Below are positions 4,449-10,608 of a DNA stretch of 64,000 nucleotides, in pieces. The notes below the pieces were generated by a model. The model did no database searches. It had not been told where the DNA came from and saw only the letters and a program-made list of their open reading frames with translations. Source of the stretch: Kangiellaceae bacterium (GTDB taxonomy: Bacteria > Pseudomonadota > Gammaproteobacteria > Enterobacterales > Kangiellaceae). The translations under genes and the position numbers were made by a program. The stretch spans positions 1 to 64,000 of the forward strand of contig JAHRVB010000142.1 in the NCBI GenBank assembly GCA_019090895.1, in the 5' to 3' direction. Within the stretch, counting starts at the first letter, position 1; the number at the start of each line of letters is the position of its first letter.

Positions 4449-5042
4449 ATGAGAAAACTAAACCACACCTTGCTACTTTTAACTATATTTGCTGCAAGCC
4501 TCCTTACGTCATCAGCCAATGCGAAAGGCCCCGCTGGAACGGTATTATACTTTCAGCAGGGCGAACAAGTATTTCTGCTACTAGCCGATCACTCTAGCAA
4601 TTCCCGAGGTTGGGGATCTTTTGGAGGCGGAGAAAATAAAGGTGAAACTTCAATAGAGACGGCTGCACGAGAAACCGAAGAAGAAACCCGTGGATATTTT
4701 CCACGAGAACTAATCGAACAAAAAATAGCAGGACAAAAACCAGTTGTATCTAAAGGATTCTCTCTTTATTTTGTAGAAATCCCTTTTGTACCCGCACAAC
4801 GGATCAGAAATAATCCTAGCGATAAATCCGACAAGAGCACCTTTGAACGCGATCACTATGCTTGGATACCCTTTTCAGAAGTTAAGAAGGCAATCAATAA
4901 AAGGAACCCATCTATTCACGATTTAAAAATCAACTCCCTTTATCTTTCTCGCGGAACAAAAACTAACTTTTTCTGGGATGTTTGGATACAGAATATGCGA
5001 CACGCTGCCGAACAGGGTGTGGTACCTTGGGAAGTTCAATAA
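4449..5042 (+). CDS. Exported Nudix-domain protein
   Basis: 197 residues. A clear signal peptide (HTLLLLTIFAASLLTSSANA) is followed by a Nudix box, GGGENKGETSIETAARETEEE, which fits G-x5-E-x7-RE-x2-EE apart from Arg in place of the last Gly. Nudix enzymes hydrolyse nucleoside-diphosphate-linked substrates and normally act in the cytoplasm, so export is unusual. No strong Shine-Dalgarno is visible. The stop overlaps the 3' end of the convergent HNH gene by 7 bases. Confidence 0.7.
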   Translation: MRKLNHTLLLLTIFAASLLTSSANAKGPAGTVLYFQQGEQVFLLLADHSSNSRGWGSFGGGENKGETSIETAARETEEETRGYFPRELIEQKIAGQKPVVSKGFSLYFVEIPFVPAQRIRNNPSDKSDKSTFERDHYAWIPFSEVKKAINKRNPSIHDLKINSLYLSRGTKTNFFWDVWIQNMRHAAEQGVVPWEVQ

Positions 5043-5590
5043 CGCATATTATTGGAAAATTCTTTGGTTAAGAAATCCATTTGATCGGCAAAAATATTTC
5101 TATTACAAAAAGCTAAGTACTCTGCTTTGTTCGGCTTATAAGGGACGGCCAGCAAAGGCATATTCGCTTCTTCTGGCGTTCGGCATCCCTTACGATTATT
5201 ACAAGGCTTACAAGCTGTTGCAAAGTTAACCCAAGAATTTTTTCCGCCTCGCGCGCGAGGTTGGATATGGTCACAAGTTAGGGTAGAACGGCTGAATACA
5301 ACACCGCAGTACAAACACATATCGCGGTCACGTTTAAACAAAGATGCGTTACACAATCTTGGCGTACGAAGGTCGCTCTCACGAACTCGAGAGTTGGTTG
5401 CGATCACCGGCGCCATGTCTAGAATAGTTTGATTCCCCGTCATTCGAGAATGACCACCATGCAGCCGAACCGATTCGTCACCATAAGTCCATAGCACTTT
5501 ACCTTTCGCGTAAAGACACGCAGCAGTGCCCATTCCAATCCATTCCATCGCCTGCCCCGCTTTATTAAGCCGCAGGATTTTAGTTTGCAT
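5036..5590 (-). CDS. HNH endonuclease at the 3' end of the tRNA array
   Basis: 184 residues from the ATG at 5590, chosen because GAGGAG lies seven bases upstream; an earlier in-frame start adds ten residues. The C-terminal half is an HNH domain: CLYCG, then CDHIQPRARGG, then NFATACKPCNNRKG, giving two zinc-binding Cys pairs and the DH catalytic pair. The N-terminal 90 residues are uncharacterised. It lies 57 bases downstream of tRNA-Arg(TCT) on the same strand and is probably the last gene of the array transcript. HNH proteins of this size can be homing or restriction-like nucleases; the target is unknown. Confidence 0.85.
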   Translation of the reverse strand: MQTKILRLNKAGQAMEWIGMGTAACLYAKGKVLWTYGDESVRLHGGHSRMTGNQTILDMAPVIATNSRVRESDLRTPRLCNASLFKRDRDMCLYCGVVFSRSTLTCDHIQPRARGGKNSWVNFATACKPCNNRKGCRTPEEANMPLLAVPYKPNKAEYLAFCNRNIFADQMDFLTKEFSNNMRY

Positions 5591-5646
5591 TTTCTTTCTC
5601 CTCTTTTTTATTGTCAGCAATCAATTAATTAGTTTTCGCATAAAGT

Positions 5647-5721
5647 TGGCACGCATCACAGGATTCGAACCTGTTACCGTCGGCTTAGAAGGCAGAAGCT
5701 CTATCCGAATGCGCTAGTGCC
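5647..5721 (-). tRNA. tRNA-Arg(TCT), degenerate 5' half
   Basis: The anticodon loop CTTCTAA, the T-arm ACAGG-TTCGAAT-CCTGT and an encoded CCA are clear. The 5' strand does not pair well with the 3' acceptor strand when a normal D-arm is drawn. A start at 5714 would give a paired 7-bp acceptor but removes most of the D-arm. It may be D-arm-truncated or a pseudogene. Confidence 0.6.
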
Positions 5722-5728
5722 TATCAAT

Positions 5729-5803
5729 TGGAGCGACATGCCGGATTTGAACCGACGAAATTTGGGTTTGCAATCCAATACATTTCCACTCTGTCAATGT
5801 CGC
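5729..5803 (-). tRNA. tRNA-Cys(GCA)
   Basis: Perfect 7-bp acceptor GCGACAT/ATGTCGC, T73 and encoded CCA. Loop TTGCAAA gives anticodon GCA. One mismatch closes the anticodon stem (A31-C39). Confidence 0.85.
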
Positions 5804-5831
5804 AAAAATTTTTGTAAAAATGTGACCGCTA

Positions 5832-6134
5832 TTAGCGGCCACGAAACCGATACAATCGGTTAATTGATTTAATTCCTTGTTCCATTCGCTGACGCGCTGA
5901 AACATTGGCGGAATGTACCTTAATGTTCGGCGGGATCACACCATAGTCAACCACTGCTTTTTCAAGCCAAGTAATGACATCGTAACCGGTGCCGCGTTTA
6001 TCATTTCCTAAGTCATGATCTAAACTTATATCGCTTACTGCACCTGTCATTAAAAGACTAATCGCCTCTTGTGGCCAACGAACAACTTTCCAACCAGGCG
6101 GCGCCTGACGGATATCATCTAAAAAAACTTTCAT
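5832..6134 (-). CDS. Cyclic-phosphate-processing receiver-domain protein (cREC)
   Basis: 100 residues behind an excellent AGGAGG site. The whole protein is one receiver-like domain: MKVFLDDIR (acidic pair), ISLDHDLGND (phospho-acceptor-position Asp plus a histidine) and IKVHSAN. This matches the cREC family proposed, from genome-context work, to act on 2',3'-cyclic phosphates in RNA repair; that role is family knowledge by prediction, not proof. It sits inside the tRNA operon between tRNA-Thr and tRNA-Cys with no promoter of its own visible. It should therefore be co-expressed with the tRNAs, which suggests processing of damaged tRNA ends. Confidence 0.8.
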   Translation of the reverse strand: MKVFLDDIRQAPPGWKVVRWPQEAISLLMTGAVSDISLDHDLGNDKRGTGYDVITWLEKAVVDYGVIPPNIKVHSANVSARQRMEQGIKSINRLYRFRGR

Positions 6135-6154
6135 ACTATCCTCCTGGGTAAATT

Positions 6155-6229
6155 TGGAGCCGGTTATTGGATTCGAACCAATGTCGACTGCTTACAAGGC
6201 AGTTACTAAACCATCTCAGCTAAACCGGC
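6155..6229 (-). tRNA. tRNA-Thr(TGT)
   Basis: Perfect acceptor GCCGGTT/AACCGGC and encoded CCA. Loop CTTGTAA gives anticodon TGT. Canonical T-loop TTCGAAT. Confidence 0.93.
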
Positions 6230-6235
6230 ATAAAT

Positions 6236-6310
6236 TGGAAGCCCCGACTGGGTTCGAACCAGCGATACGAGAGTCAAAGTCTCGTGTGTTGCCAACTACA
6301 CTACAGGGCT
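6236..6310 (-). tRNA. tRNA-Gln(TTG)
   Basis: Acceptor AGCCCTG/CGGGGCT with one G-U pair and encoded CCA. Anticodon stem CGAGA/TCTCG closes loop CTTTGAC, anticodon TTG. Confidence 0.92.
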
Positions 6311-6317
6311 AAAAAAT

Positions 6318-6393
6318 TGGCACCCTTGGCAAGACTCGAACTTTCGCATCTTGGTTTCGTAGACCAAAGCTCTTCCAACTGAGCTACAAGGGT
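6318..6393 (-). tRNA. tRNA-Arg(ACG)
   Basis: Perfect acceptor ACCCTTG/CAAGGGT and encoded CCA. Stem TTGGT/ACCAA closes loop CTACGAA, anticodon ACG, which needs A34-to-inosine editing to read all CGN codons except CGG. The T-stem has one mismatch. Confidence 0.9.
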
Positions 6394-6398
6394 ATATT

Positions 6399-6473
6399 TG
6401 GTGTCTCCAATTGGATTCGAACCAATGTCTCGAGAATTTCAACCTCGCGCTAATCCAACTCAGCTATGAAAAC
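6399..6473 (-). tRNA. tRNA-Phe(GAA)
   Basis: Acceptor GTTTTCA pairs with TGGAGAC using two G-U pairs; CCA is encoded. Loop TTGAAAT gives anticodon GAA. Confidence 0.88.
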
Positions 6474-6480
6474 AATTATT

Positions 6481-6562
6481 TGGAACACGAGACGGGATTC
6501 GAACCTGCGAATGAATGACCAGATTGAAAGTCTGGTCACTTTGACCGCTCGTATACTCGTGT
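6481..6562 (-). tRNA. tRNA with anticodon TTC (Glu) on a Tyr/Ser-like body
   Basis: Perfect acceptor ACACGAG/CTCGTGT, T73 and CCA. A 7-bp stem GACCAGA/TCTGGTC closes loop CTTTCAA, anticodon TTC. The D-region (ACGAGCGGTCAAAG) looks like a class II tRNA such as tRNA-Tyr, yet the variable segment is only about 9 bases. Its charging identity is therefore uncertain. A conventional tRNA-Glu(TTC) lies next to it. Confidence 0.7.
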
Positions 6563-6568
6563 ATAAAC

Positions 6569-6644
6569 TGGTGTTCCTATGGGGATTCGAACCCCAGTAA
6601 CTTGGTAGAAAGCCAAGTGTCCTTAGCCACTAGACTATAGGAAC
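6569..6644 (-). tRNA. tRNA-Glu(TTC)
   Basis: Perfect acceptor GTTCCTA/TAGGAAC and CCA. Stem CTTGG/CCAAG closes loop CTTTCTA, anticodon TTC. The GTCTAGTGGC D-region is typical of tRNA-Glu. Confidence 0.93.
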
Positions 6645-6649
6645 ATGTT

Positions 6650-6726
6650 TGGTAGGCCGCCCGAGATTCGAACTCGGAACCTTCCGGTTAAAAGCCGGAT
6701 GCTGCTTCCAATTGAGCTAGCGACCT
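6650..6726 (-). tRNA. tRNA-Lys(TTT)
   Basis: Acceptor AGGTCGC/GCGGCCT with one G-U pair and encoded CCA. Stem TCCGG/CCGGA closes loop CTTTTAA, anticodon TTT. Confidence 0.93.
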
Positions 6727-6732
6727 AAAAAA

Positions 6733-6831
6733 TGGTAGTACTGGATTGAATCGAACAATCGACCTCCTGTGTGTAAGACAGGCGCTCTCCCAATCGTCTC
6801 ATTACGCCTACTTTTGGTGAGCTAAAGTGCT
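6733..6831 (-). tRNA. tRNA-Val(TAC) with a D-loop insertion
   Basis: Stem CCTGT/ACAGG closes loop CTTACAC, anticodon TAC; T-arm GATTG-TTCGATT-CAATC and CCA are present. The standard TAGCTCA and TGGGAGAGC halves of the D-arm are separated by about 21-23 extra bases. Taking the distal 5' end, acceptor AGCACTT pairs at 5 of 7 positions with CAGTACT. Taking the nearer 5' end gives a much poorer acceptor. The insert is nearly identical to that in tRNA-Ala (7069-7186). Confidence 0.7.
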
Positions 6832-6837
6832 AAAAAT

Positions 6838-6913
6838 TGGTCCCCAGAGCTGGTCATGATCCAGCCACCTCACGCTTATCAGGCGTGTGCTCTACCAGAT
6901 GAGCTATCTGGGG
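6838..6913 (-). tRNA. tRNA-Ile(GAT) with atypical T-loop
   Basis: Perfect acceptor CCCCAGA/TCTGGGG and CCA. Stem CACGC/GCGTG closes loop CTGATAA, anticodon GAT. The T-loop is ATCATGA rather than TTCRANN, which replaces the usual T54-A58 pair by A54/T58. Confidence 0.88.
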
Positions 6914-6988
6914 AAAACGGTCGAGTCGGACTTTCACCGTGACGGGTCTGTAGGGTGAAGCCTCGACCGACTTCACCATCGTTTTTCC
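6914..6988 (-). other. Structured spacer, possible tRNA-Asp remnant
   Basis: This 75-base gap between tRNA genes is longer than the others and folds strongly. GGTCGAG pairs with CTCGACC, and alternatively GGTGAAG pairs with CTTCACC. A CCGTCACGG stretch resembles the tRNA-Asp(GTC) anticodon region, but no normal T-arm can be drawn. No other Asp tRNA is found in the array. Confidence 0.3.
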
Positions 6989-7062
6989 TGGCGGATGTAC
7001 AAAGAATCGAACTTTGATCAAACGGTTAACAGCCGTTCGCTCTACCATTGAGCTACACATCC
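6989..7062 (-). tRNA. tRNA-Asn(GTT)
   Basis: Acceptor GGATGTG/TACATCC (one G-U) and encoded CCA. Stem AACGG/CCGTT closes loop CTGTTAA, anticodon GTT. Confidence 0.93.
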
Positions 7063-7068
7063 TAAAGT

Positions 7069-7186
7069 TGGTGGAGATGATGAGATTCGAACTCTTTCCT
7101 CTCGTAGCAATTCGAACTCTACAACTTGCAAAGCTTTTGCTCTCCCAATCGTCTAATAACGCCTACACTTGTTGAGCTACACCCCC
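7069..7186 (-). tRNA. tRNA-Ala(TGC) with D-loop insertion and duplicated T-arm-like element
   Basis: 118 bases. The outer ends pair fully: GGGGGTG with CATCTCC (G-U allowed), then A73 and CCA. Loop TTTGCAA gives anticodon TGC. The D-arm halves are separated by about 21 extra bases that match the insert in tRNA-Val at 26 of 28 aligned positions. After the anticodon arm there is an extra hairpin GTAG/CTAC containing AGTTCGAAT, a second T-loop-like sequence, before the true T-arm. Confidence 0.65.
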
Positions 7187-7206
7187 ATTCCAAACATTTT
7201 AATAAC

Positions 7207-7275
7207 TGGCATAGAGCGAGGGAATCGAACCCGTTTCTTAAGGCTTACAACCGTGTATAATCGCCGACATACTAT
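7207..7275 (-). tRNA. Degenerate tRNA-like gene, anticodon GTA or TGT
   Basis: Encoded CCA, T-loop TTCGATT and a GG-TTGTAAG-CC anticodon arm are visible. Only four outer acceptor pairs (ATAG/CTAT) plus one wobble form. A 7-base loop gives GTA (Tyr), while a shifted reading gives TGT (Thr). Short length and weak stems suggest a decaying copy. Confidence 0.45.
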
Positions 7276-7287
7276 GGCATCGTAAAT

Positions 7288-7363
7288 TGGTCGGAGGTAC
7301 AGGATTTGAACCTGTGATATACACTCCCAAAGCGTAGGTGTTACCAGACTACACTAACCTCCG
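7288..7363 (-). tRNA. tRNA-Pro(TGG)
   Basis: Perfect acceptor CGGAGGT/ACCTCCG and CCA. Stem TACGC/GTGTA closes loop TTTGGGA, anticodon TGG. Confidence 0.92.
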
Positions 7364-7373
7364 TTAATCAATT

Positions 7374-7449
7374 TGGTAGCAATGACAGGACTTGAACCTG
7401 TGCAAATTTTCGTATGAAGAAAACACTCTACCAACTGAGCTACATTGCT
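7374..7449 (-). tRNA. tRNA-Met(CAT), elongator type
   Basis: Perfect acceptor AGCAATG/CATTGCT and CCA. Stem TTTTC/GAAAA closes loop TTCATAC, anticodon CAT. The paired 1-72 position argues against an initiator. Confidence 0.88.
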
Positions 7450-7455
7450 AAAATT

Positions 7456-7530
7456 TGGTTGCGGATGACTGAATCGAACGGCCGACCAAAGGGACATGAA
7501 CCTTATATGCTTCCACAGCACTAACCCGCT
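7456..7530 (-). tRNA. CAT-anticodon tRNA, possibly initiator-like
   Basis: Loop TTCATGT gives anticodon CAT. The acceptor AGCGGGT/ATCCGCA pairs at six positions but has A1 opposite A72; bacterial initiator tRNA also has an unpaired 1-72. The 3' end CCGCAACCA matches the E. coli tRNA-fMet tail. The anticodon stem has only GG/CC next to the loop rather than three G-C pairs, so the identity is tentative. Confidence 0.7.
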
Positions 7531-7536
7531 TTAATT

Positions 7537-7611
7537 TGGAGCAAACACTGAGACTCGAACTCAGCCTTTAAGATTGGAAATCTTTCGTGCTACCGCTAAC
7601 ACTATGCTTGC
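7537..7611 (-). tRNA. tRNA-Gly(TCC)
   Basis: Acceptor GCAAGCA/TGTTTGC (one G-U), T73 and CCA. Stem AAGA/TCTT closes loop TTTCCAA, anticodon TCC. Confidence 0.9.
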
Positions 7612-7612
7612 T

Positions 7613-7696
7613 TGGTGGACAGCCCGGGTTTCGAACCCGGCACGCTATTAAGCATCGGATTTACAGTCCGAATGAGATCCAAATCTCCCGCTACCC
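7613..7696 (-). tRNA. tRNA-Tyr(GTA)
   Basis: First tRNA of the long distal block. Acceptor GGGTAGC/GCTGTCC (two G-U) and CCA; stem TCGGA/TCCGA closes loop CTGTAAA, anticodon GTA. It has a class II variable arm of about 14 bases and a short D-loop inside GAGA/TCTC. Confidence 0.9.
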
Positions 7697-7702
7697 ATAT
7701 TG

Positions 7703-7726
7703 ACGAGCATTGAATTAACTGCTCGT
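7703..7726 (-). promoter_or_regulatory. Leader hairpin before tRNA-Tyr
   Basis: ACGAGCA and TGCTCGT form a perfect 7-bp stem with a 10-base loop between the boxA-like site and tRNA-Tyr. It may be a processing hairpin of the polycistronic precursor. Confidence 0.5.
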
Positions 7727-7740
7727 ACTTTTTACGAAAA

Positions 7741-7807
7741 CTAATTATTAAAGAACGTTGCCCACAATTGAGGCAGTGTCACTACACCTTTCTGGCATTT
7801 GTGTGAC
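7741..7807 (-). promoter_or_regulatory. boxB/boxA-like antitermination leader for the long tRNA block
   Basis: On the minus strand GTTCTTTAATAATTAG (7741-7756) closely resembles the rrn boxA TGCTCTTTAACAATTTA. It is preceded by a bulged hairpin (7778-7807, GTCAC/GTGAC core) in the boxB position. In rRNA operons boxA recruits NusB-NusE for antitermination. Here it lies just after attenuator 3 and before 19 tRNAs, cREC and HNH. Confidence 0.6.
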
Positions 7808-7828
7808 TAAAGGTCCAACTATGGACAT

Positions 7829-7860
7829 AAAAAAACCCGAGGCTTTGAACTCTCGGGTTT
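7829..7860 (-). terminator. Terminator of attenuator 3
   Basis: On the minus strand ACCCGAGAG-loop-CCTCGGGT is followed by seven T residues: a strong intrinsic terminator. Its 5' arm can instead pair with upstream CTCTCGAGTTT (7868-7878). Confidence 0.9.
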
Positions 7861-7917
7861 AAATAAAAAACTCGAGAGAAACTTTTGCGTAACTCCCAAG
7901 TAAAACTTACTTTGAAG
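7861..7917 (-). promoter_or_regulatory. Attenuator 3 competing-hairpin region
   Basis: Segments in transcript order: 1 at 7917-7906 directly after the leader stop, 2 at 7903-7888, 3 at 7878-7868, and 4 at 7860-7850 (terminator 5' arm). AAGTAA/TTACTT pairs 1:2, GGGAG/CTCTC pairs 2:3 (one G-U), and CTCTCG-GTTT/AAAC-CGAGAG pairs 3:4. A ribosome at the stop would cover segment 1, favouring 2:3 and the terminator. Earlier stalling would allow 1:2 and antiterminator 3:4. Confidence 0.75.
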
Positions 7918-8046
7918 TTACGTTGGCGCACCTCTAGCACCAAAATAAATCTTGCTATTCATTTGCCCATGTTCGGGCCGTACAATCTCACACCAATGAT
8001 TTATCGGCTGTGTTAACTGCATCTGCTTTTGGCTATTTATTTTCAT
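7918..8046 (-). CDS. Leader peptide 3 of the tRNA array
   Basis: A 42-residue ORF starting MKINSQKQMQL, with GGAA four to five bases before the ATG and ending GARGAPT. It uses 19 of the 20 amino acids (only Asp absent). It lies between tRNA-Ile2 and terminator 3, and its stop codon abuts the first attenuator segment. No promoter fits in the 26 bases upstream, so it is probably transcribed by readthrough of attenuator 2. The position and broad composition fit a codon-sampling attenuation peptide rather than a stable protein. It precedes the block with Tyr, Gly, Met, Pro, Ala, Asn, Ile, Val, Lys, Glu, Phe, Arg, Gln, Thr and Cys tRNAs. Confidence 0.7.
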   Translation of the reverse strand: MKINSQKQMQLTQPINHWCEIVRPEHGQMNSKIYFGARGAPT

Positions 8047-8072
8047 AGTTTCCAATTTTATCTACGTTAATT

Positions 8073-8149
8073 TGGTGGGCCTGCTCAGATTCGAACTGAG
8101 ACTCTACCGATTATGAGTCGGTTGCATTAACCAATTATGCTACAGGTCC
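8073..8149 (-). tRNA. tRNA-Ile2 (CAT, probable lysidine type)
   Basis: Acceptor GGACCTG/CAGGCCC with one A-C mismatch, A73 and CCA. Stem ACCGA/TCGGT closes loop CTCATAA, anticodon CAT. C4-G69 and C5-G68, and the CGACTCATAATCG anticodon arm shared with E. coli tRNA-Ile2, fit known TilS recognition. It would then read ATA. It stands alone between attenuators 2 and 3. Confidence 0.8.
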
Positions 8150-8165
8150 AACTTATATTTTTGGC

Positions 8166-8204
8166 AAAAAAAAGCCCTGTGAAGAATATCTCAACCGGGC
8201 TTTA
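8166..8204 (-). terminator. Terminator of attenuator 2
   Basis: Minus-strand AAAGCCC-19-base loop-GGGCTTT followed by a T-run. It sits 17 bases upstream of tRNA-Ile2, so it can only serve that tRNA as an attenuator or end an upstream transcript. Confidence 0.85.
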
Positions 8205-8249
8205 GATTCGGTTCGAGACTTCAGTTAAGCCTCGAATTATTGTTCAAAG
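8190..8249 (-). promoter_or_regulatory. Attenuator 2 competing-hairpin region
   Basis: Segments in transcript order: 0 at 8249-8243, four bases after the leader stop; 1 at 8236-8227; 2 at 8221-8209; 3 at 8198-8190, overlapping the terminator. CTTTGAA/TTCGAGG pairs 0:1 (two G-U), TTCGAGGCTT/AAGTCTCGAA pairs 1:2 over 10 bp, and AACCG/CGGTT plus CTC/GAG pairs 2:3. A ribosome at the stop masks segment 0, giving 1:2 and termination. Earlier stalling gives 0:1 and antiterminator 2:3. Confidence 0.75.
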
Positions 8250-8253
8250 CACA

Positions 8254-8361
8254 CTACATCTTTCTATTTTCATATTGCCCAATAAATGGCATGCAACAAT
8301 ATTCAGCCGGCCAATAATTGGCCCGTTGTTTTATTTGTATTGTCGCTATTATCTGATTCAT
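8254..8361 (-). CDS. Leader peptide 2 of the tRNA array
   Basis: A 35-residue ORF beginning MNQIIATIQIKQRANYW. Four of its first ten codons are ATA, and the next tRNA downstream is the CAT tRNA predicted to read ATA. The peptide uses M, N, Q, I, A, T, K, R, Y, W, P, E, C, F and G. It has no Leu, Ser or His, which are exactly the residues served by the tRNA block upstream; it also lacks Val and Asp. The ribosome-binding site is weak (an A-rich tract). It is preceded by a consensus promoter at 8450-8478. It is read as a regulatory leader, with no stable product expected. Confidence 0.7.
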   Translation of the reverse strand: MNQIIATIQIKQRANYWPAEYCCMPFIGQYENRKM

Positions 8362-8449
8362 AAAACTTTTTTCAAACTAACTTTGTAAATTAAAATTTCC
8401 TAAACACTAAGAGATACAAGTTTTTCTTACTGCTCATTTGTTAAGTTGC

Positions 8450-8478
8450 ATTAAACCATTACAGAACTTCACTGTCAA
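8450..8478 (-). promoter_or_regulatory. Sigma-70 promoter P2
   Basis: Minus-strand TTGACA, 17-base spacer, TTTAAT. It drives leader 2, tRNA-Ile2 and, by readthrough, leader 3 and the long block. The rest of 8362-8663 is AT-rich and shows no gene. Confidence 0.8.
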
Positions 8479-8663
8479 CACCTAGACTATATTTTATTCA
8501 ATAATATCAAAGAGTTATAGAATTTGATGCACAATAAACCCTTCACCGTTTTTCGCAGTAAATATCTTTTAATATTTGAAACAGACCCATTCAATTCCAA
8601 ACCTACAACACCATTATCGAATTTTCAGTTAACAACTATTACTCCGTTTACTTTTTGGTAATT

Positions 8664-8740
8664 TGGTACGCCGCGAGGGACTCGAACCCTCAAAACCGGA
8701 GGCTTAAACCCCGTATGTATGCCAATTCCATCACCGACGC
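8664..8740 (-). tRNA. tRNA-Leu(TAA) with collapsed variable arm
   Basis: Acceptor GCGTCGG/GCGGCGT pairs at six positions with wobbles; CCA is encoded. Stem CGGGG/CTCCG closes loop TTTAAGC, anticodon TAA. The GATGGAATTGGCA D-region is Leu-like, yet the variable segment is only five bases instead of a class II arm. Confidence 0.8.
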
Positions 8741-8747
8741 ATTAAAC

Positions 8748-8836
8748 TGGAGGAGAGAAAGAGAATCGAACTCTAAAGGCTTTCGCCTTCCCTTTGCTTA
8801 GCAAGCAACGCCGATCACCATCACGGATTACTCTCC
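8748..8836 (-). tRNA. tRNA-Ser(GCT)
   Basis: Acceptor GGAGAGT/TCTCTCC pairs at six positions and CCA is encoded. Stem GTTGC/GCAAA (outermost pair mismatched) closes loop TTGCTAA, anticodon GCT. A class II variable arm AAGGC-GAAA-GCCTT is present. Confidence 0.88.
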
Positions 8837-8845
8837 AAAATAATT

Positions 8846-8938
8846 TGGCGGAAGCCGGAGGGCTCGAACCCCAAATCCTATTCAGGTACCACTGGTTTTC
8901 AAGACCAGGGCTTTGACCAACTCAAAGTTTCAACTTCC
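8846..8938 (-). tRNA. tRNA-Ser(TGA)
   Basis: Acceptor GGAAGTT/GGCTTCC (G-U allowed), G73 and CCA. Stem CTGGT/ACCAG closes loop CTTGAAA, anticodon TGA. The D-stem is extended (CTTTG/CAAAG) and a long variable arm is present. Confidence 0.88.
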
Positions 8939-8944
8939 TATATT

Positions 8945-9115
8945 TGGTACCCAGAGAGACTACTCAGACCATCCTTGGTCTTCATACATTCGTGCCATCG
9001 TCATTCTTCCGATGTTCGGCAATGCTCCTTCATTGCTCGTCGAACTCTTAATGAACGGATTCTAAATCCGCCGTGTATGCCGGACTATTTATAGCCAGCC
9101 TGGCACCACCTGGGC
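8945..9115 (-). tRNA. tRNA-Leu(TAG) with about 85 extra bases
   Basis: 171 bases. Outer ends pair fully, GCCCAGG with TCTGGGT (G-U allowed), then A73 and CCA. Stem GCGGA/TCCGT closes loop TTTAGAA, anticodon TAG. The D-loop is enlarged. The T-loop TTCGACG is followed by an insertion with three perfect hairpins (9019-9036, 8996-9014, 8966-8981) before the 3' T-stem. A functional tRNA would need removal or tolerance of this insert. Confidence 0.65.
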
Positions 9116-9141
9116 TTCATCTGTTTTTTACAAATCATCAT

Positions 9142-9218
9142 TGGGGTAACCAATCGGGTTTGAACCGATATCATCCGGACTCACAATCCGGAGCTCGACC
9201 AATTGAGCTATGGCTACC
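9142..9218 (-). tRNA. tRNA-His(GTG)
   Basis: Acceptor GTAGCCA/TGGTTAC, C73 and CCA, with an encoded G at -1, the His identity element. Stem CCGGA/TCCGG closes loop TTGTGAG, anticodon GTG. First tRNA after attenuator 1. Confidence 0.93.
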
Positions 9219-9254
9219 CCAATAATGACTAACAAATTTACGGAATTTCAGGCA

Positions 9255-9286
9255 TAAAAAAACCGCAAGTTTTTGGCTTGCGGTTT
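9255..9286 (-). terminator. Terminator of attenuator 1
   Basis: Minus-strand AAACCGCAAG-7-base loop-CTTGCGGTTT followed by T residues. It lies 37 bases upstream of tRNA-His. Confidence 0.9.
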
Positions 9287-9351
9287 AAAGAATCAGGTTT
9301 AATTTAAATTCTTCTTATCCGGAAGCCTGCGCTCCCAAATAAGGAAGCGAG
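9275..9351 (-). promoter_or_regulatory. Attenuator 1 competing-hairpin region
   Basis: Segments in transcript order: 1 at 9351-9343 directly after the leader stop, 2 at 9336-9330, 3 at 9327-9319, 4 at 9283-9275 (terminator 5' arm). CGCTTCC/GGGAGCG pairs 1:2, GGGAGC/GCTTCC pairs 2:3, and GGCTTCCGG/CCGCAAGCC pairs 3:4 at eight of nine positions. A ribosome at the stop would mask segment 1, leaving 2:3 and the terminator. Stalling earlier would give 1:2 and antiterminator 3:4. Confidence 0.78.
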
Positions 9352-9483
9352 CTAGATCAACAACGAATGCTCTTTACGTGTTATTGATCCACTAAATGAA
9401 TAACCCCATAAACTGAGCACAGCAGGGCTGGAGATCCGATGATCTCTTTGCACTGTATTCAGTTGATTTAGGAATGTGTTCAT
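9352..9483 (-). CDS. Leader peptide 1 of the tRNA array
   Basis: A 43-residue ORF starting MNTFLNQLNTVQRDHR, with AAAGG about 12 bases before the ATG and ending RKEHSLLI. It uses 19 different amino acids (Cys absent). Leu (6), Ser (7) and His (2) make up 15 of 43 codons. They include CTA, CTG, CTC, TTA and TTG for Leu, and TCC, TCA, TCG, AGC and AGT for Ser. The block it precedes encodes tRNA-His, Leu(TAG), Ser(TGA), Ser(GCT) and Leu(TAA), which read these codon families. A consensus promoter lies 77 bases upstream. It is interpreted as a codon-sampling attenuation leader. Confidence 0.75.
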   Translation of the reverse strand: MNTFLNQLNTVQRDHRISSPAVLSLWGYSFSGSITRKEHSLLI

Positions 9484-9559
9484 TTGCAAATTTACCTTTC
9501 AAATATAATTTCAGGCTTAGGTTTTAGTTGCTCTAAAGCCTGTCCATTCAGTTAACGAG

Positions 9560-9588
9560 AATATACCGACTTAGAATTCAACCGTCAA
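9560..9588 (-). promoter_or_regulatory. Sigma-70 promoter P1
   Basis: Minus-strand TTGACG, 17-base spacer, TATATT. It drives leader 1 and the His-Leu-Ser-Ser-Leu tRNA block. Confidence 0.85.
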
Positions 9589-9764
9589 GTGAAATTTCTT
9601 AAATACTGTTAATAATCAATATGTTACAGTTTGTGGCGTACACGAATAGATCTTCACCCTCCTTGGATAAATATTACTTCCTGGTTCATTTTATGGTTTT
9701 CATTTAAACCACTCTATCGTTTGTTGTTATATTCTTTATCACAGTTTCTCTTTTATTTAGGTGT

Positions 9765-9800
9765 AAAAAAACGCCGGTTGCTTAGTAGCTTCCGGCGTTC
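9765..9800 (-). terminator. Terminator of attenuator 4
   Basis: Minus-strand AACGCCGG-14-base loop-CCGGCGT followed by T residues. The following 176 bases down to promoter P1 hold no tRNA or convincing gene. Confidence 0.88.
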
Positions 9801-9866
9801 TTATAAAATTAAAACTTTATTTAAACTTTGGAAGCTATTCACTTCCAAATTAAGGTTGGAAGTGAA
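9786..9866 (-). promoter_or_regulatory. Attenuator 4 competing-hairpin region
   Basis: Segments in transcript order: 1 at 9866-9858 right after the leader stop, 2 at 9846-9838, 3 at 9837-9830, 4 at 9793-9786 touching the terminator 5' arm. TTCACTTCC/GGAAGTGAA pairs 1:2 (9 bp perfect), GGAAG/CTTCC pairs 2:3, and TAGCTTCC/GGAAGCTA pairs 3:4 (8 bp perfect). The order and logic match attenuators 1-3, although the antiterminator overlaps the terminator stem by only two bases. Confidence 0.7.
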
Positions 9867-9867
9867 A

Positions 9868-9993
9868 TTATCGAGGGTGCTCCCCCAATAACGATATCAT
9901 CTTATCTGCTAGACAACTGAGCACACGTGTCCAGGCAGAGATATCCCCCGCTTGAAAATAATTGCACTGTTGAATAACCGTTAAGTGAAACAA
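9868..9993 (-). CDS. Leader peptide 4 of the tRNA array
   Basis: A 41-residue reading from a TTG at 9993, beginning MFHLTVIQQCNYFQAGDI and ending GEHPR. All 20 amino acids occur. TTG was chosen because AAAGGAAGAG lies just upstream and a promoter (TTGTAT-18-TAGAAT) just before that. The frame itself is open to a GTG at 10089, giving 73 residues. No tRNA follows its terminator before the next promoter, so it is an orphan module, or the outermost gate acting by readthrough into module 1. Confidence 0.55.
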   Translation of the reverse strand: MFHLTVIQQCNYFQAGDISAWTRVLSCLADKMISLLGEHPR

Positions 9994-10022
9994 AATCGCT
10001 CTTCCTTTATTTAACTGCTCAC

Positions 10023-10052
10023 ATTCTATCGTTTTAGGTACGAAAAATACAA
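10023..10052 (-). promoter_or_regulatory. Sigma-70 promoter P4
   Basis: Minus-strand TTGTAT, 18-base spacer, TAGAAT, placed to start a transcript about 20-25 bases before the leader 4 TTG. Confidence 0.6.
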
Positions 10053-10191
10053 GCCGTTTAAATAACGAAAACTCATAAGTCCTACTCACTTCCTAATCTT
10101 GAGATTATTAGTGGACAAGATAATCAACAGTCGTTAGCCTTAACCGTAAGTGTTTTAGATAGTCAAATTTACATCAGTGACAGGGAAAGAT

Positions 10192-10608
10192 ATGAAAACA
10201 ATTATTGCGGCACTACTGCTAATTTCTAGCTTTAATGCGTCCTCAGAAGAAGAATTTGGCCTGACGCAATTTGTCGTAGGCGAATATACTTTAGTGGGCA
10301 AAGCCAATAATTCAGATAATACTTATACGGGAAAGCTTAAGATATCCAGTGACAATGGAAAGTTAGCTATCACTCGACAGATCGGGTCTACAACAATAAA
10401 GGGAAGTGGCGCTATTGAGTCAGCGATTCATGACGAAGCAAAAGTTCTTAGAATGCGCTTTCAACAGCATGAAACTGCGTTTGAGCAGACTTGCTTAGTT
10501 CAAGCAGACTTGAATAATTACGCTCGTATTAGTTGTTATCTTTATGAACCTAACAAGAAGACGAATAATCCGGGAATGGAAGTTTTTTTCCATGTTCGAA
10601 ACCGCTAA
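10192..10608 (+). CDS. Small secreted protein of unknown function
   Basis: 138 residues from the ATG at 10192, which follows an AGGGAAAG ribosome-binding site. A signal peptide (MKTIIAALLLISSFNASSE) is followed by a probable beta-rich domain with two cysteines near the C-terminus (TCLVQ, ISCYLY) that could form a disulfide. I do not recognise a family. The next gene starts 16 bases downstream and is also a small secreted protein, so the two probably form an operon. Confidence 0.65.
   Translation: MKTIIAALLLISSFNASSEEEFGLTQFVVGEYTLVGKANNSDNTYTGKLKISSDNGKLAITRQIGSTTIKGSGAIESAIHDEAKVLRMRFQQHETAFEQTCLVQADLNNYARISCYLYEPNKKTNNPGMEVFFHVRNR

Follow-up and report, generated by a model that had tools for sequence, protein, structure and literature searches.

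Two serial leader-terminator units that look like a double lock on a tRNA array in a Kangiellaceae bacterium

The tRNA array and its leader units

The window analysed here, a stretch of 64,000 nucleotides from a Kangiellaceae genome of 4.96 Mb, carries a tRNA array that runs on the minus strand from about 10 kb down to about 5 kb. Twenty tRNAs recognised by ARAGORN are packed into about 3.6 kb, a density of tRNA genes by which the locus qualifies as a tRNA array unit, and the array also holds several degenerate tRNAs, a cREC_REC gene and an HNH endonuclease gene. Four leader-terminator units, L0 to L3, punctuate it, in the order L0-T0 (no tRNA), P1-L1-T1, tRNA-His/Leu/Ser/Ser/Leu, P2-L2-T2, tRNA-Ile2, L3-T3, a boxA-like site and a long tRNA block. 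The features are as follows.

9868..9993, minus strand: leader 0 ORF, 41 codons, all 20 amino acids, TTG start assumed
9560..9588, minus strand: promoter P1, TTGACG-17-TATATT, score 11.6, reached by 1 of 300 shuffles
9352..9483, minus strand: leader 1 ORF, 43 codons, 19 amino acids, ahead of tRNA-His, Leu, Ser, Ser, Leu
9260..9286, minus strand: attenuator 1 terminator
8575..8594 (8594-8575), minus strand: conserved element upstream of P2, TTGAATGGGTCTGTTTCAAA, with similar copies upstream of leaders in loci L023, L024, L025, L026 and L027
8450..8478, minus strand: promoter P2, TTGACA-17-TTTAAT, score 13.0, reached by 0 of 300 shuffles
8254..8361, minus strand: leader 2 ORF, 35 codons, 15 amino acids, four AUA codons
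8171..8253, minus strand: attenuator 2, segments A GCTTTGAA, B TTCGAGGC, C GTCTCGAACCG and D/E terminator 8203-8171
8073..8149, minus strand: tRNA-Ile2 (CAT) by ARAGORN, between the two gates
7918..8046, minus strand: leader 3 ORF, 42 codons, 19 amino acids (without Asp)
7833..7917, minus strand: attenuator 3, segments A CTTCAAAGTAA, B TTACTTGGGAG, C CTCTCGAGTTT and D/E terminator 7860-7833
7745..7757, minus strand: boxA-like site, CGTTCTTTAATAA, between T3 and the long tRNA block
5647..7696, minus strand: long tRNA block, 17 ARAGORN tRNAs plus about three degenerate, with the cREC gene inside
7283-7207, 7186-7069 and 6985-6916, minus strand: degenerate tRNAs after T3, by sequence reading
5832..6134, minus strand: cREC_REC protein gene within the array, Pfam PF20274, E 1.9e-28
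5036..5590, minus strand: HNH endonuclease gene at the array end, Pfam HNH_5, E 2.3e-14

The first-pass annotation had described a 19-tRNA block, a figure that is approximate only, given 17 ARAGORN tRNAs after T3 and about three degenerate ones read by eye. The HNH gene serves as a marker of related arrays; assignment of its product as PtuB (PADLOC, best E 2.8e-9) was rejected, the matches being confined to the HNH part. A terminator-like hairpin (5842-5822, minus strand) lies 3' of the cREC gene, ahead of the last two tRNAs, tRNA-Cys and tRNA-Arg, and the HNH gene.

The terminator of leader 0, at about 9802-9770 on the minus strand, has no tRNA downstream, and the sigma70 scan found no clear promoter upstream of this leader. 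Units of this L0 type, a leader and terminator with no recognisable tRNA before the next promoter, occur in the window and in L024, L026, L027, L143 and L144. The conserved element upstream of P2 is palindrome-like (TTTGAAATTGAATGGGTCTGTTTCAAA, then TTCACTG..GGTGAAGG, 5' of leader promoters), and its core is the sole match in its own genome at up to 3 mismatches; it is a possible operator. At the corresponding position, L143 and L144 share a different element.

In alignment with E. coli genes, the tRNA between the two gates scores 30.0 against ileX and 25.5 against metT, and it has the anticodon stem-loop CCGACTCATAATCGG; on these two grounds the earlier label tRNA-Ile2 is a fair one. Leader 3 follows it just as previously described, with a gap of 26 nt (the earlier figure of 27 counts one end).

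Switch structure and codon content of the leaders

The leader ORFs are 30 to 60 codons long or more, and the stop codon of each adjoins a five-segment RNA switch, in which segments A to E can each pair with the next and D:E forms the terminator. A short leader ORF just 5' of an intrinsic terminator was found for all 29 leaders of the set. The stems of T2 (8203-8171, minus strand) and T3 (7860-7833, minus strand) have folding energies of -13.1 and -13.7 kcal/mol, and against 200 shuffles each the five-segment chain gives p=0.005 for L2 and p=0.010 for L3. Under a strict overlap rule the chain A:B, B:C, C:D reaches p<=0.05 in 19 of the 29 leaders, including all four of the window. That rule missed leader 1 types; a relaxed rule, accompanied by a control of 40 non-array terminators, detects antiterminator and terminator as mutually exclusive folds (p<=0.05) in 23 of the 29, among them 21 of 21 from Kangiellaceae, versus 4 of the 40 terminators outside arrays. 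The leaders failing the relaxed test among the 29 are L064_B, L066_B, L035 and three beta leaders.

Dependence of the structure on ribosome position comes from modelling, in which the RNA ahead of the ribosome was folded with the ribosome at each codon and its potential to sequester D was scored. This antiterminator potential keeps roughly one level through the ORF until the last codons, where it falls: for L3 from 0.71 to 0.03-0.10 at the ORF end (drop 0.62, 0 of 30 shuffles), and for L2 from about 0.6 to 0.27 (drop 0.28, 1 of 30 shuffles). A drop of more than 0.15 is seen in 18 of 29 leaders, and no leader shows the opposite trend (combined p against shuffles 5e-5); under equilibrium folding the drop is absent or nearly so (<=0.06) in L0, L024_L0, L025_L2, L027_L0, L027_L1, L064_B, L143_L2, L143_L3 and L144_L3. 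Run on E. coli trpL, hisL, leuL and thrL, the same script scores antiterminator potential as high where their known control codons lie, and the switch logic of the array therefore belongs to a known kind of attenuator. The gates might be taken as a plain inversion of trp logic, but a similar plateau in E. coli thrL weakens that view. Among the points against the model, leader 2 lacks a clear Shine-Dalgarno sequence. Searches with Rfam for a T-box, riboswitch or other RNA family gave tRNA matches only at the gathering score; for the T-box there was no match at E up to 10 in 5500-10200, and nothing else below the gathering score was convincing.

The leaders sample an unusually broad set of codons. 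Summed over the 29 leaders, the different amino acids number 537, where coding windows of equal length would give 475.6 (z 7.7), and the tRNA classes, of 24, number 620 against 533.1 (z 9.4), values of z that are an upper guide because related leaders are not fully independent; many leaders, moreover, had initially been selected for at least 15 or 16 different amino acids, a threshold near the null mean. That threshold was not applied to the five leaders of L143 and L144, and the three plasmid and four phage leaders, with 12 to 20 different amino acids, were listed by length rather than composition. For the four leaders of the window, tRNA classes sum to 84 against 72.3 expected. Without L143 and L144, 12 of 24 leaders contain all 20 amino acids. 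The search with the HNH gene returned 82 loci (80 genome, 2 viral), from which the loci carrying tRNA arrays were kept; L099, L108, L109 and L105 (incomplete) were left out of the leader set, two leaders that had been read, the first in L144 and the second in L029, were not counted, and some leader start codons were chosen by the analyst. Three plasmid arrays, found only through the HNH gene, have leaders with 20, 19 and 20 amino acids, and the ORF-end drops of these three leaders are not above codon shuffles.

In the Kangiellaceae leaders AUA is enriched (34 versus 13.1 expected) and AUU depleted (21 versus 33.7), a pair of biases that fits sensing of tRNA species. Leader 2 is no richer in amino acids than chance (15 versus 15.5 expected), and AUA makes up 4 of its 34 codons (P=0.0012); across first gates AUA accounts for 7 of 95 codons (P=3.8e-4), which is marginal against 27 of 850 in the other Kangiellaceae leaders (p=0.046). 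Codons for D, H, L, S and V are missing from leader 2, and for D alone from leader 3. Leader 1 is rich in His, Leu and Ser, the amino acids served by the tRNAs of its own unit, with 15 of 42 codons against 5 of 75 in leaders 2 and 3 together (p=1.1e-4 in a post hoc comparison), a signal that is weaker across relatives (95 of 334 versus 66 of 359, p=0.0012).

Correspondence between a leader and the tRNAs it precedes can be examined in Salicola phage SCTP-2, a jumbo phage reached through the HNH search, which has four leader-terminator-tRNA units in 270,000-345,000 of its 440,001 bases. Codons for the amino acids of the leader's own tRNAs are 11 of 43 (Asp/His/Met), 12 of 42 (Lys/Phe/Trp), 18 of 36 (Ser/Glu/Thr) and 13 of 27 (Leu/Pro/Tyr/Gln), with P=0.014, 0.014, 1.8e-5 and 5.4e-4 respectively. 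All off-diagonal combinations of leader and tRNA set have P>=0.53, and of the 24 possible pairings the true one ranks best. The antiterminator segment sits within the last codons of the leader ORF; antiterminator potential falls from 0.57-0.82 to near zero by the ORF end, a drop matched by 0 of 40 codon-shuffled ORFs for each of the four leaders. A match between control codons and operon product is thus seen in this phage matrix and in the coverage of tRNA classes, not in every leader. The scanned parts of phages T5 (23 tRNAs) and XacN1 (28 tRNAs) contain no leader-terminator-tRNA units.

Serial order in related arrays

The first-pass annotation had placed attenuators 2 and 3 in series, and that order recurs in two other genera of Kangiellaceae (L143 from G010 and L144 from G018): P2, leader 2, terminator, AUA-reading tRNA-Ile, about 25 nt, leader 3, terminator, boxA-like site and block. 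The layout is therefore conserved, not an accident of one genome, and an impression from L023, L024 and L025 that the series is private to the window is ruled out by L143 and L144. Leader 2 has 33 codons in L143 and 30 in L144; in all three genomes, leader 2 encodes I-Q-I at codons 8-10, codon 8 being AUA. The inter-gate tRNA of L143 and L144 is degenerate, with an anticodon read as UAU (AUA-reading Ile). Among the nine Kangiellaceae array loci read, the series is present in these three and missing from L023, L024, L025, L026, L027 and L029; L030 is the same locus as L025 (G023, Aliikangiella marina), and L032 the same as L023 (G017, a Kangiellaceae MAG).

In two arrays of other families, L064 (Microbulbifer) and L066 (a Cellvibrionaceae MAG), the order is attenuator, CAT tRNA, attenuator, block; the CAT tRNA is closer to ileX (19.0 and 19.5) than to the alternative (14.5), and the second leader has upstream space enough for a promoter. 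In 12 of 15 arrays tested, a boxA-like site with 0 to 3 mismatches stands between the last gate and the block, the exceptions being L024, L064 and L107; none of the five first gates tested, which precede a CAT or UAU tRNA, has one. The site in the window has 3 mismatches, a level reached by 24 of 500 shuffles, and some relatives have exact or near-exact copies. In an IMG/VR contig (L110, 160-520) an initiator-like tRNA-Met is followed, about 20 nt on, by a leader-like ORF and a hairpin, behind which lies a tRNA block that has a boxA-like site; here too a CAT tRNA stands directly ahead of a leader.

Serial action depends on where leader 3 RNA begins. Scans for promoters used the sigma70 consensus, with scoring built on hexamer frequencies and each score compared with 300 shuffles. 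From T2 to the ATG of leader 3 the best score is 4.1, reached by 243 of 300 shuffles, against 13.0 (0 of 300) for P2, which supports the earlier claim that leader 3 lacks a promoter of its own. Corresponding stretches give 5.5 in L143 (253 of 300) and 7.6 in L144 (127 of 300), where P2 scores 12.1 and 12.1. That the two attenuators work independently, with leader 3 served by a promoter inside tRNA-Ile2 or T2, or by a non-sigma70 promoter, would draw support from the restriction of the scans to sigma70 and from the comparable arrays L064 and L066, where there is ample DNA upstream of the second leader and, in L066, a TTGACA-18-TATTCT that scores 10.8; the agreement of the best scores with shuffles in three genomes makes it quite improbable. 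About equally improbable, to our minds, is a decaying tandem duplication in which one of leaders 2 and 3 is a relic and a single gate works: in Aliikangiella-type arrays (L023, L025) a single leader does precede the boxA site and tRNA-Tyr, and the window's own leader 0 terminator has no tRNA downstream, but both ORFs and both switches are intact in the window, L143 and L144 despite sequence divergence. With no recognisable promoter of its own, leader 3 RNA should therefore originate at P2 or further upstream. The proposal that it comes from P2 by readthrough holds in this wider form: transcripts from P1 could also enter, because no leader-type terminator is seen between tRNA-Leu and P2.

A possible double lock and its relation to known systems

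The leader ORFs, the five-segment pairing, the terminators, the boxA-like site and the lack of a recognisable third promoter are read directly from the DNA. Taken with the folding model, they suggest a reserve tRNA set held under ribosome-mediated transcription attenuators, with the two serial gates forming a double lock, a reading to which we give a probability of roughly 0.78. RNA polymerase starting at P2 would transcribe leader 2. Were its ORF fully translated, the ribosome at the stop would cover A, B:C would pair, D would be free for E, and transcription would terminate. With a ribosome stalled for a missing charged tRNA, or with none present, A:B and C:D would form in place of the terminator and polymerase would pass into tRNA-Ile2. 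Leader 3, reached by readthrough alone, would repeat the test with a wider codon set, and a second ribosome failure there would let polymerase run past the boxA-like site into the long block. Leak through such a double lock would fall multiplicatively, with the AUA-reading tRNA freed at gate 1 and the full set at gate 2. The attenuators thus seem, under the model, to sense missing charged tRNA and to release the reserve. We infer folding in the cell, the double-lock behaviour and the stall signal, be it tRNA cleavage, starvation or ribosome-targeting drugs.

The first reading of the locus proposed an AND of two inputs, which finds no support in this form, as both gates are predicted to answer one event, a ribosome not finishing the leader ORF. 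Should both leaders check whether translation has run to the end, the block would open only when both checks fail; since leader 2 lacks D, H, L, S and V and leader 3 lacks D, this would happen only for shortages visible to both. In the model the two gates resemble a double lock whose codon sets overlap more than they do an AND of separate signals. With tRNAs for His, Leu and Ser supplied by the leader 1 unit, the series may confine the response of the block to shortages not met upstream, and may lower leak.

We think it unlikely, though less so than the two alternatives above, that the leaders sense general translation failure (ribosome antibiotics, or uncoupling of transcription from translation), their rich codon content being incidental. 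The model is ON without any ribosome, and the tRNA array of the Anabaena trn operon is induced by antibiotics that target translation (PMC10272220), both as such a sensor would behave; against this, coverage is stronger for tRNA classes (z 9.4) than for amino acids (z 7.7), the phage leaders match their own tRNA sets, and AUA is enriched. Sensing of missing tRNAs remains our preference, and with somewhat less confidence than for the window itself we lean towards a general form of it. Bacterial, plasmid and jumbo-phage tRNA operons would be autoregulated by leader peptides that mirror their own tRNAs; small operons would use mainly their own amino acids, and large arrays a near-universal leader acting as a single sensor for the loss of any tRNA, for example under anticodon nuclease attack. 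The Kangiellaceae arrays would add two serial gates that free the AUA-reading tRNA and then the whole reserve.

In E. coli amino-acid attenuators the leader runs for 14-28 codons up to its stop and has control codons for one or two amino acids. The array units resemble those of trpL, hisL, leuL and thrL in their short leader ORF, competing antiterminator and terminator, and modelled dependence on ribosome position. They differ in serving tRNA genes rather than biosynthetic genes, in leaders of 30-60 codons or more that cover up to 20 amino acids plus AUA, and in an extra pairing segment. A boxA-like site before a long untranslated tRNA block is reminiscent of rrn boxA antitermination, from which the array differs in that its putative site is placed after an attenuator.

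In the full-text literature searched, which covered few subscription journals and no preprints, control of tRNA operons by leader-peptide attenuation was nowhere described, and the Anabaena operon was the only regulated tRNA array met there. As is proposed for the array described here, Anabaena trn is a long tRNA array tied to translational stress, silent until induced by antibiotics that hit translation, and its regulon includes rtcB; it differs in being controlled at the promoter by the RHH repressor TrcR, and the strings 'attenuat' and 'leader' appear nowhere in the main text (PMC10272220). For tRNA array units, dense tRNA clusters on chromosomes, plasmids and phages proposed as antidefence, the main text mentions no leader, attenuator, terminator or promoter (PMC12803027).

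The arrays in L023 (1163-11028) and L025 (3595-12897) lie among genes that, by sequence reading, are putative RNA-repair genes (rtcA, slipin, RNase Z-like); a putative repair nucleotidyltransferase, named in the same way, lies by the array in L023 only. By analogy, this putative context and the induction seen in Anabaena favour a reserve tRNA set for tRNA loss. A leader that samples nearly all tRNA classes would, if the reading is true, be a genetically encoded sensor of tRNA loss wired to tRNA supply, a new way for cells to sense missing tRNAs in arrays tied to tRNA damage and repair. The hypothesis is open to simple reporter tests.

Several array tRNAs have inserts in the T-loop region, roughly 75-85 nt with small hairpins and a core like CGAACATCGG..GACGATGGC, and were missed by ARAGORN (window, about 9111-8931, minus strand; L144, 7665-7826, 8160-8318 and 8410-8570). 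These inserts are possibly intron-like. The core motif occurs in 5 of 11 array loci scanned (window, L023, L025, L026 and L144), with 2 matches in 45 kb outside the array. In the window, tRNA-Val (6806-6733) and the Ala-like tRNA (7186-7069), both on the minus strand, have D-loops longer by 22-27 nt, and the extra segments are alike around AGGCGT and AGACGA.
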